Made by a program: the position numbers and the translations under genes
Shown here: one piece after another, positions 6,222 through 42,019 of the stretch
How positions within the stretch are numbered: the first letter of the stretch is position 1
Layout: every line of letters starts with the position of its first letter
NCBI RefSeq assembly: GCF_014334135.1
Contig: NZ_CP060497.1
Span: forward strand, 3,038,001 to 3,102,000
Length of the DNA stretch: 64,000 bases
From: Olivibacter sp. SDN3
Lineage (GTDB): Bacteria; Bacteroidota; Bacteroidia; Sphingobacteriales; Sphingobacteriaceae
Reading direction: 5' to 3'
Notes under the pieces: generated by a model
The model's input: only the letters and a program-made list of their open reading frames with translations
Told to the model about the DNA's origin: nothing
The model's database searches: none

Positions 6222-6788
6222 TTACGCCCGTGGCTCAAAATAGCCTAGGTAACAGCTTTTGGAATATTGGGTTCCCTTTTTATTGTGCGCATAGAGATAG
6301 GCGTAGAAACCATGCTGTTTAAATGGAGGGGGTATTTTTACTTCGATATGTCCATCTTTTCTATAGCAGGTCTGATCGTTCCGGGCGCCAAATCCCATTT
6401 CTGGGTTGATGAGCACTAAAGCCAACTCATCGCCATCTTTTGCCATCGGATGTGTGAGATTCCCGTAGAAAACTTCCAATTGTTCGGTGGAACGGGCAAC
6501 ATCATCGATAGGCGGTAGAGGTAGGGTACCCATACTGATCATCACCTTTTCCGGTACAATATGCTGATCGGGATAGTCACCGGTAATGGCATCCTGTATC
6601 ACCTTCCGCAGGGCCTGGCCGAAGGCCTTGGTTTTTTTACCATCCCCATAGTTTTTCCAGGTGTCATTGATAATAGGGCGTAGCGGATTAAGAAAAGCCA
6701 TCGCTAAACGCATTTTCTGCTGGGTCGCCAATCGTCCGTAGGGCGCTTTTTTGGATTTCTTTTTGTTTCTGTCGTAGAAAAACTCCAT
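6222..6788 (-). CDS. DUF6266 family protein (second of tandem pair)
   Basis: A 188-residue protein resembling the C-terminal two thirds of DUF6266 proteins, with an N-terminal segment on residues being added to large plans (RLATQQKMRLAMAFLNPLRP) and a C-terminal beta-rich part ending GYFEPRA. The ATG at 6788 is chosen because it sits 13 bp after the stop of the preceding DUF6266 gene; a longer frame to 6929 would overlap that gene. No signal peptide or enzymatic motif is visible. DUF6266 is a Bacteroidota family of unknown function, often present in several copies per genome. Confidence 0.75.
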   Translation of the reverse strand: MEFFYDRNKKKSKKAPYGRLATQQKMRLAMAFLNPLRPIINDTWKNYGDGKKTKAFGQALRKVIQDAITGDYPDQHIVPEKVMISMGTLPLPPIDDVARSTEQLEVFYGNLTHPMAKDGDELALVLINPEMGFGARNDQTCYRKDGHIEVKIPPPFKQHGFYAYLYAHNKKGTQYSKSCYLGYFEPRA

Positions 6789-6801: not shown

Positions 6802-7446
6802 TTAATCCTTGGTTGTCGGGAGATAAACCGTAGATGATACCCTTTTCCGTTGGTTATCACTGAAGAAAAGCCAGATATGTGCCGATTGGAACTCTTCTTG
6901 GGAGACATCGGGTATTTGTGCCTCACCATGATGGCGTCTCACCAAATTTTCGGGACTCTTAAAAAAATTAGCATTAGCGAAATAGCAGAGCATATGGGCC
7001 TCATCGTCTAATGCACCGCTAATGCCGTAAGTTTTCGGATCCCAAGAGACTCGAATACTATTTTCTACCCATTCCGCATTTTCTGCCCCTGCACTGAATA
7101 ATGATCCGTGGCTCAGTCGGAGAGCAGCGTAGTTGAGCGCTGGCTCTCCTGTCTCATCCTGGATAAAGGCATGTTCGTAATTGTATTGGAAAGCAATATT
7201 ACGGGCGGTGGCTTTGCTTAGAAAAGCCTGAAAACCGATTTTTAGCACAGGAGTGATGAACGATAAAAAACTGTTCAATAGTTGGAACTTCTGCTGTTGA
7301 AATTGTTGTTCTACACTTGGTTTCCCCTTGTTTTTGTATGAACGGGGCAACCCTTTGATGTAATCGATCTTTTTCCATCCGCTGCCGATAACACTTCCTG
7401 TCTTCCCCCGGAAAGGACCGTTTGCTCCTTTGTTAAGAATTCCCAT
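6802..7446 (-). CDS. DUF6266 family protein (first of tandem pair)
   Basis: A 214-residue protein with the characteristic DUF6266 N-terminus: a short glycine-rich start, GPFRGKTGSVIGSGWKKIDYI at about residues 10-30, then PRSYKNKGKPSVEQQFQQQKF and a hydrophobic helix. The rest is predicted beta-rich. It is the upstream member of a two-gene unit with the DUF6266 gene at 6222-6788; the two are diverged duplicates. The start ATG at 7446 has a purine-poor upstream region typical of Bacteroidota. The long upstream spacer carries a striking repeat array at 7583-7670. Function unknown. Confidence 0.8.
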   Translation of the reverse strand: MGILNKGANGPFRGKTGSVIGSGWKKIDYIKGLPRSYKNKGKPSVEQQFQQQKFQLLNSFLSFITPVLKIGFQAFLSKATARNIAFQYNYEHAFIQDETGEPALNYAALRLSHGSLFSAGAENAEWVENSIRVSWDPKTYGISGALDDEAHMLCYFANANFFKSPENLVRRHHGEAQIPDVSQEEFQSAHIWLFFSDNQRKRVSSTVYLPTTKD

Positions 7447-7582
7447 AATTTAAGTTTGGTTTTTTTATTTCCTGTCGATTCCCCTCACCTGCAATTATAG
7501 GTAAAATAAGCCTATTTTATAGATAAAAACAAAAATAAAGTAATAAAAAAAGTATAAAGAAGGTATAATAAAAGTCAAATTT

Positions 7583-7670
7583 ATCGTTTTTTAACCGTTT
7601 ATTCACCGTAAATTGACCGTAAAATATACGGTCAATTTACGGTGAATAAACGATAAATTTATGGTCAATA
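7583..7670. repeat. Eight phased 11-bp units forming a dyad array
   Basis: Units start at 7583, 7594, 7605 and 7616 in one orientation (core A(C/T)CGT(T/A)) and at 7627, 7638, 7649 and 7660 in the opposite orientation (core TA(C/T)GGT or AACGAT). All are in perfect 11-bp phase across the centre. The middle is a perfect 26-bp inverted repeat (7596-7621 with 7627-7652) around a 5-nt spacer, and AAATTTATCG at 7577-7586 is mirrored at 7651-7660. Same-face half-sites suggest cooperative protein binding. It lies 137 bp upstream of the DUF6266 start on the minus strand. Confidence 0.8.
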
Positions 7671-7811
7671 TGAGAATGTTTATAGGTTCATTATAAAATC
7701 TTATTACTTTTATTCTAGTATTCTTATTGAAAATTATGATAGCTCTTCTTCAACTTTTGTTTTGAAGGAAAATAGTATATAGCCGTAGTTGGAAATGGAA
7801 GCGAAAGGGAC

Positions 7812-7874
7812 AGGCCGCAAAATCGCAGCTGTTAACCAAAGAAACTTGCCATGTGCATGATGGCCTGTTTTTTG
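7812..7874 (+). terminator. Possible terminator or small structured RNA end
   Basis: ACAGGCC at 7812-7818 pairs with GGCCTGT at 7863-7869 and is followed by a T-run (TTTTT to about 7874). The 44-nt segment enclosed is long for a simple terminator and contains further local complementarity. It could be the 3' end of a small transcript from the array region. There is no coding gene upstream on this strand for it to terminate. Confidence 0.35.
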
Positions 7875-41272: not shown

Positions 41273-42019
41273 TCATAAACCTAGCGCCTGTTTCAGTCGG
41301 GCATAACCAGATTTACTCACATTTACTCGCATGTTGTTCGTTAGAATAGCGACATGACTGTCCTTTTCATAGGGTTCGAGCCGGGTAATGCTATCGATCT
41401 TTACAATAAAAGATCGGTGAATTCTAACAAAAATGTTAGGATCTAGCTCTTTTTCAAAGAATGCCATCGTTTTATTCTTAAGAAAAACACCATCGTCCGT
41501 GTGCAGCTTCACATAGTCGTCATCTGCTTCTAAACAAAAAATAGTTTCTATTGGAAGTACTTTAATTTTGCTTCCGGTTTTAACTACTACACGCTCTAAC
41601 GCTTGTTGACTCGGCGGGAGATTATCCAATAACTTTTTCGTTTGTTCTTTATCTACCTGTGAAAGGTTTCGTTGGCTTAGGAATTTTGAAATGGCTTGGT
41701 CAAAGCGGGATTTACTGATAGGTTTAAGTAGATAATCGACAGCGTGTTTTTCGAAAGCTTTAATGGCATATTCATCGAAAGCAGTAGTAAAAATAACAGA
41801 AGGTTGCTCGTCTAATAGTTCGAGCATTTCAAAACCATTGATTTTTGGCATCTGAATATCTAAAAAAACAATATCGGGGCGATGCTGCATAATTGCTTTA
41901 GCCCCTTCGAATCCATCATTGCATTCTTCTACAATAGTAATTTCTTTATAATTAGCTAAATACTCGCTAATGATACTTCTTGCTAGGGGTTCATCATCAA
42001 TCAAAATAGCTTTAATCAT
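41273..42019 (-). CDS. LytTR family response regulator
   Basis: A 248-residue two-component regulator: receiver domain (1-120, phospho-acceptor in VFLDIQMP, KPISK) and a C-terminal LytTR DNA-binding domain (about 145-245, with KTGSKIKVLP and FVRIHRSFIVKID). Its start overlaps the end of the kinase gene by ATGA. It is the output of the LiaF-LytS-LytR operon. Such regulators bind pairs of 9-bp direct repeats. Confidence 0.94.
   Translation of the reverse strand: MIKAILIDDEPLARSIISEYLANYKEITIVEECNDGFEGAKAIMQHRPDIVFLDIQMPKINGFEMLELLDEQPSVIFTTAFDEYAIKAFEKHAVDYLLKPISKSRFDQAISKFLSQRNLSQVDKEQTKKLLDNLPPSQQALERVVVKTGSKIKVLPIETIFCLEADDDYVKLHTDDGVFLKNKTMAFFEKELDPNIFVRIHRSFIVKIDSITRLEPYEKDSHVAILTNNMRVNVSKSGYARLKQALGL

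Follow-up and report, generated by a model that had tools for sequence, protein, structure and literature searches.

Phased rows of 11-bp units upstream of DUF6266 genes in Olivibacter and related Sphingobacteriaceae

Rows of 11-bp units precede nearly all of the DUF6266 genes that we sampled in Olivibacter, Parapedobacter, and Sphingobacterium; judged from sequence, the dialect of the units follows the DUF6266 subfamily, and rows of the same dialect also stand alone elsewhere in the genome. The array described here lies upstream of a pair of DUF6266 genes in a 64-kb stretch of DNA (the window) from the soil bacterium Olivibacter sp. SDN3 (the host). We tentatively read it as a phased, multi-site protein-binding element of the DUF6266 family that a protein acting in trans would recognize, DUF6266 being the most economical candidate, and we give this reading a little less than an even chance. 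For an uncharacterized family, a cis element before nearly every sampled member is a first handle, and it brings with it a direct prediction: each DUF6266 member, or a co-evolving partner, should read its own dialect.

Architecture of the window array and its DUF6266 genes

The core array (7580–7668, no strand assigned) consists of eight 11-bp units, four of the form TTnAYCGTnnn followed by four reversed, as delimited by the sequence itself, by alignment with ten other Olivibacter arrays, and by shuffles. On direct reading, the left-arm cores are ATCGT at 7583 and ACCGT at 7594, 7605, and 7616, while the right-arm cores, which are reverse complements, are ACGGT at 7628 and 7639, ACGAT at 7650, and ATGGT at 7661. 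In the window, [AG][CT]CGT recurs at 11-bp spacing at most four times in a row, whereas 60 dinucleotide shuffles of the window gave a longest run of one (21 times) or two (39 times) and never four; the original prediction of eight 11-bp units, the first four ACCGT-type and the last four reversed, is borne out by both observations. The unbroken phase that it proposed across the dyad holds for the tiling of units but not for the cores, which are spaced 11 bp apart inside each arm and 12 bp apart over the dyad (7616 to 7628), one base off. The central inverted repeat (7596–7652) is perfect, as predicted, with 26 bp being the length of each of its two arms (7596–7621 and 7627–7652) around a 5-nt center.

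Self-match at lag 11 over 44 bp reaches 0.70 at 7585, the top lag-11 value of the window, and the maxima across lags 7–19 are 0.52–0.64 and fall at other window positions; when scored as an upstream region in the family-wide test described below, the array gives 31/44 matches with a p value of 0.005. The phased region exceeds 88 bp, because a weaker lag-11 signal (0.66 at 7521) extends into the A+T-rich left flank (7521–7579), where GTATAA-type units carry a weaker 11-bp period. The right flank (7669–7735), also A+T-rich, holds units like those on the mirrored side of the host's other arrays, judged by eye rather than by a separate statistic. The layout suggests that the dyad is the point at which two opposed rows meet.

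The inverted repeat folds strongly (z −9.3 against 200 shuffles) and its arms covary among the Olivibacter arrays (score 0.194, with 0/500 shuffles as high), the inner and middle spacers included (p 0.013). Such behavior would suit an RNA element, either a transcribed hairpin or, in the manner of type III toxin-antitoxin loci, a repeat RNA controlling DUF6266. The covariation is limited to the inner units, however (outer spacers, p 0.93), and could also come from quasi-palindrome correction; Sphingobacterium arms have units in common without full pairing, no Rfam family reaches its gathering score (13 matches, all below), and no terminator-like site lies at the array. We consider an RNA element very improbable and favor binding of a protein to the DNA over an RNA hairpin, because the arms covary only near the center and the Sphingobacterium arms lack full pairing. 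Two terminator-like sites at 7848–7864 (both strands) fall outside the array, which we accordingly do not regard as an intrinsic terminator.

Both genes beside the array lie on the minus strand and score above the curated PF19781 cut-off of 23.4 bits. Gene 1 (6802–7446; 214 aa; E 1.1e-18, 67.9 bits) has its start codon 134 bp from the array; gene 2 (6222–6788; E 2.7e-10, 40.6 bits) encodes 188 aa from the ATG at 6788, a start taken from a separate reading, the PF19781 scan having begun at an upstream one. Searches of 14 Olivibacter and Parapedobacter genomes found between 1 and 19 copies of the family in each. The predicted model of the gene-1 protein contains a fibronectin-III-like domain (residues 114–214), whose best comparison with FN3-like folds gives Z 10.7 and an rmsd of 2.4 over 91 residues, and a low-confidence N-terminal part (pLDDT < 50 for residues 1–36); no DNA-binding fold is recognizable in it, and Foldseek returned no match at E ≤ 0.001. 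Quality is lower for the gene-2 model (mean pLDDT 67). With the window proteins as queries, a PDB sequence search gave a best E of 0.15 or worse and PHROGs only weak matches (E 0.011 or worse). DUF6266 proteins had no match in phages, plasmids, or viral contigs, nor did the array itself, and in the open-access PMC literature we found no paper naming the family and nothing on 11-bp direct repeats in Bacteroidetes.

Arrays across the DUF6266 family

We scored lag-11 self-match in the 600 bp upstream of 62 gene-1 or single DUF6266 genes, with 200 block shuffles each. A significant array (p ≤ 0.01) was present in 56/62 upstreams, 38 of them with at least 28/44 matches, against 1/111 control upstreams of other genes from the same loci at p ≤ 0.01 and none with 28/44. 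Downstream of DUF6266 the array occurred in 4/61 regions, and in the DUF6266 upstreams other lags gave 0–3/62 (lags 7–9 and 12–15) or 14/62 (lag 10). Five misses can be named (L067, where the array lies further upstream, and L148, L153, L174, and L176), the sixth coming from the random draw; among the 56, L191 is doubtful as A+T-rich, as are L172 and L154, whose best stretch is more than 550 bp upstream. The 62 upstreams do not amount to 62 independent events, because the loci were the best-scoring ones plus chosen pairs, biased to high scores and with many orthologues, besides these few doubtful cases. The idea that the array marks the control of this uncharacterized family is strengthened by the family-wide linkage (56/62 versus 1/111).

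In a tree of 91 DUF6266 proteins from the sampled loci, window gene 1 falls in a clade of 14 with support 100/100, made up of three Olivibacter proteins and eleven from eight Parapedobacter genomes; O. domesticus (G001) and the Olivibacter genome G003 have no clade member in this tree. All 14 have a YCGT-type array upstream (lag-11 p 0.005–0.010 each), with decayed cores in two (L206 and L208). Absence of the array beside the same pair in close relatives would have refuted the original prediction; the array accompanies 14/14 clade members, and 56/62 upstreams overall have an 11-bp array of some dialect. A simpler array label placed on the tree also marked 10 non-clade proteins, missed L206 and L208, and needed 9 changes, and the lag-11 test was used instead, which detects the arrays before other DUF6266 genes that a YCGT-core detector misses.

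Several DUF6266 subfamilies show upstream 11-bp arrays, and their unit dialects include the YCGT type, CCCGTCA, TTACC, CGAAC, TTATTCGGAC, ATAGGGAC, GGGTTAAC, and TTCAGTTA. All four DUF6266 loci of the host have one (p 0.005 each). Inverted repeats occur at 30/50 of the stronger arrays, compared with 8.3 expected. Taken as sequence patterns, these rows suggest a private recognition code written in 11-bp units. DUF6266 protein identity correlates with unit similarity (Mantel r 0.50, p 0.0005, n 50), a value that cannot separate linkage from function because physical linkage alone would give it; the 6/31 solo-free comparisons likewise cannot tell the two apart. A version of the finding in which the array is specific to one gene pair is rejected both ways, as solo arrays exist and other DUF6266 genes have arrays in other dialects.

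Solo arrays, their spread, and their siting

Pattern searches of the 6.12-Mb host genome find five sites with the four-plus-four layout. The four outside the window lie upstream of a susC-type TonB-receptor gene, GH127, ybeY, and a second susC-type gene, and no DUF6266 gene was found in the 12-kb stretch that surrounds each of them. The many dispersed, gene-unrelated copies that the original prediction had named as its refutation are seen to the extent that four copies sit away from DUF6266, but not in number, since only five sites are found by pattern. Because these four copies sit away from DUF6266 genes, the array is also a dispersed element, and the genes that solo arrays adjoin have no common theme. 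REP, MITE, and STAR-type repeats are dispersed palindromic repeats whose intergenic copies carry inverted repeats; DUF6266-type arrays likewise occur as intergenic copies with inverted repeats, but differ in their strict 11-bp phase, few copies, subfamily-specific units, and link to one gene family.

Three of the copies dispersed in the host (window, GH127, and second susC) have 257–297 bp in common at 72–80% identity, an element of about 300 bp that spans 7460–7759 in the window (coordinates converted from a reverse-strand alignment). This common stretch beyond the units is what one would expect if the array were the recognition part of a mobile element, with the DUF6266 pair as its cargo, gained or lost beside arrays of the matching dialect, and the solo arrays as remnants or empty sites. 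Sphingobacterium copies that are 85–95% identical in differing contexts point the same way, as does the observation that most array sites are not common to different species. Three Parapedobacter neighborhoods (LysR/HD, carA, and epimerase/ApaG) hold the array either with or without the pair, and where the pair occurs it is on the same side, past the shorter arm (read by eye); at carA the far-side gene differs between genomes. Simple deletion of the pair would look alike, however, the ORF tables (read by eye) show no recurrent transposase or recombinase next to the arrays, and some sites are long kept, the ybeY array being retained in three Olivibacter species. We regard a mobile unit as unlikely, though with some standing.

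Persistence varies among the Olivibacter genomes. At HD/YitT the array is missing from both G003 and O. domesticus. G003 lacks it at ybeY as well; O. domesticus has there four 11-bp units, GAGTCCGTAGT (L251:2840–2883; 0/200 shuffles as high), in another dialect where its relatives have the YCGT type. That O. domesticus has arrays although it lacks a clade gene tells against our main reading. Two arrays of this species (L088 and L089) sit close to contig ends and resemble each other in their flanks; about 1 kb at most separates one of them from dnaA, and a collapsed repeat may lie between the two.

Allowing one mismatch, the central pattern occurs in 4/5 Olivibacter genomes, 13/301 genomes of the family, and 3/25 genera, namely Olivibacter, Parapedobacter, and Sphingobacterium; read backwards, it has no match in the 5 Olivibacter or 301 family genomes. 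A 231-bp query has matches in 12/93 Sphingobacterium genomes, in which the arrays are longer and combine outer TTnTTCG-type with inner TTACCGT-type units. A stricter pattern of four exact ACCGT units is found in 1/395 genomes sampled across the phylum. Among 12 stretches from about 85,000 species, a Cloacimonadota MAG, from another phylum, holds a four-plus-four row of 11-bp ACCGT units with a central dyad (L076:3508–3600), and a Prevotellaceae MAG (L072:1–130) and an Acidobacteria MAG (L073:1–110) hold long 11-bp ACGGT rows at contig ends; no recognized DUF6266 gene lies beside these three arrays in the sequence read. Several arrays also lie inside a repeat-rich accessory island of one Sphingobacterium genome (G303 C12, about 1.074–1.131 Mb; L128, L129, L245–L249), where dozens of repeated 40–900-bp stretches are set among AbiE-, HipA-, zeta-toxin-, ORF6N-, and AlbA-like genes (named by eye); that these may be gene cassettes is a side observation only.

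A blind scan of 1.66 Mb sampled from three genomes (864 kb from the host) for lag-11 peaks of at least 30/44 returned five, all intergenic, two of which are the known window and ybeY arrays. Of the three new peaks, one is directly upstream of a DUF6266 gene (L342), and the other two (L322 and L332) have no DUF6266 gene in the 20-kb stretch around them. Lags 8–10 and 12–14 together gave six intergenic peaks, of which O. jilunii contributed five, at lag 14. As to siting, 35/36 scored Olivibacter and Parapedobacter arrays adjoin at least one gene start (one Olivibacter array was not scorable, and L088, L134, and L237 were left out), and in Sphingobacterium convergent gaps hold 6/26 arrays versus 15/49 in the background. 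With convergent gaps scarce in the Olivibacter and Parapedobacter background (2/33), these counts do not decide for promoter-only siting.

Siting also bears on chromosome organization, in which the arrays would be origin-linked, centromere-like sites. The ybeY array is about 5.5 kb from the minimum of cumulative GC skew in the host (C1, about 1,471,249; L294) and 5.4 kb from it in O. jilunii (C1, about 640,946; L312), and four of the five host arrays are within 0.82 Mb of the minimum, a proximity that is suggestive only. The minimum is flat, staying within 80 units over about 5 kb in the host and 17 kb in O. jilunii, where a parS consensus site is already near it; the Parapedobacter arrays found are not at ybeY, two arrays of one Sphingobacterium contig are not at a skew turning point, and the DUF6266 link would be left unexplained. 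We judge an origin function to have only a slight chance of being correct. In both Olivibacter species the minimum falls between two genes that, judged by eye, are nadA and nadB, and it is likely oriC, and the O. jilunii parS consensus, TGTTTCACGTGAAACA, is about 6 kb from it (L312:4832).

Dialects and candidate readers of the array

Ten genomes combine a clade gene with one or more solo arrays. Across their 20 solo and 11 linked arrays, solo and linked units from one genome agree in dialect, with a cosine of 0.939 versus 0.720 (permutation p 2e-5). G007, in which no solo array was found, and G001, which has no clade gene, were omitted from the comparison, as were the two linked arrays with decayed cores. 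Parapedobacter alone gives 0.924 versus 0.812 (6/5040 permutations, p = 0.0012), and the three Olivibacter genomes alone give 1/6 permutations. G098 departs from this in part: it has two solo arrays, and one of them is in another dialect than the linked array. At fixed loci, the choice of C or T in the core tracks the genome and not the locus (27C/13T in the host, 11C/4T in G004, 1C/15T in O. jilunii, and 3C/13T in O. domesticus). Agreement between solo and linked dialects could come from recent copying within a genome.

The mechanism that we propose concerns linked and solo arrays alike. A sequence-specific protein would occupy one unit in each turn of the DNA, with neighboring copies lined up on nearly the same face, where the 11-bp unit length places equivalent contacts. 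Two oppositely oriented rows would meet at the dyad, and the resulting cooperative complex would control the downstream DUF6266 promoter and also act at solo sites. The original prediction of an operator-like row of same-face half-sites accompanying the DUF6266 pair is supported. Less firmly, the reader may be the DUF6266 protein or pair, acting as an autoregulator with remote targets; DUF6266 is favored over one global regulator because there are several dialects per genome and DUF6266 is the gene common to the loci.

Taken further, DUF6266 proteins may form a new class of self-specific array readers, in which each paralogue or pair would recognize a private 11-bp code that is arranged as a phased array ahead of the gene encoding it and at a small number of distant sites, protein and code would drift together, and one genome would run several insulated systems. 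We put this wider proposal at about one chance in three. Phased multi-site binding arrays are a known kind of element; that a new class of protein reads these ones has a real chance. If true, parallel dialects with linked and unlinked sites would form a natural set for studying how proteins and their DNA codes diverge, and possibly a source of orthogonal DNA-binding modules.

LytTR-type boxes consist of direct half-sites near whole DNA turns, and the array cores bear a superficial AC-GTT likeness to them. The window array differs in having at least eight contiguous 11-bp units, a drifting core, and no adjoining LytTR gene. The LytTR reader that the original prediction put forward finds no support: a LytTR-like response regulator (41273–42019, by eye) is about 34 kb from the array, and one LytTR consensus would not fit, because the core varies to ATCGT and GTCGT and the units of other subfamilies are unrelated in sequence. 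No result ties the Crp-like gene to the array either, and control by LytTR or Crp is set aside, the sole link being the same 64-kb window.

A nearer parallel is found in the operators of CarH and CarA, where, according to PMC9304148, MerR-type DNA-binding domains read tandem 11-bp direct repeats head to tail, with three or four repeats per CarH operator and the motif nnnnTnnACAn. The likeness lies in tandem 11-bp direct repeats on one DNA face. As far as that text describes CarH, the window units (TTnAYCGTnnn) depart from its motif, and the mirrored half, the per-gene dialects, and the link to DUF6266 are features of the DUF6266 arrays (PMC9304148). The precedent nevertheless lends some weight to an operator of another regulator family, such as a MerR/HTH_17-type protein with DUF6266 only as its target, and in two Sphingobacterium DUF6266 loci a small HTH_17/MerR_1-like gene, a candidate alternative reader, lies directly upstream of the array (L132:2883–3233, its HTH_17 score being below the cut-off, and L141:4527–4877). 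Neither the window array nor the Parapedobacter arrays showed such a gene alongside, the unit motif is unlike that of CarH, and several dialects per genome would demand several regulators. We think such a regulator improbable and retain a DUF6266 protein as the preferred reader.

The centromeres of plasmids with type Ib/II partition systems (parC/ParR, parS of omega) are, according to PMC5016525, rows of short repeats upstream of their own operon, cooperatively bound by a protein able to repress that operon. DUF6266 arrays are similar as rows of short repeats upstream of an operon, but, set beside that account of parC/ParR, they are chromosomal, dispersed, mirrored at a dyad, and not beside motor or ParR genes (PMC5016525); the window array adjoins DUF6266 and cupin genes, not a partition operon.

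In two Parapedobacter loci (L233:1400–1700 and L238:1400–1700), long arrays lie apart from DUF6266 genes and are written in a second dialect, TTACCGTTTCC; this dialect resembles the units upstream of a different Parapedobacter DUF6266 subfamily.
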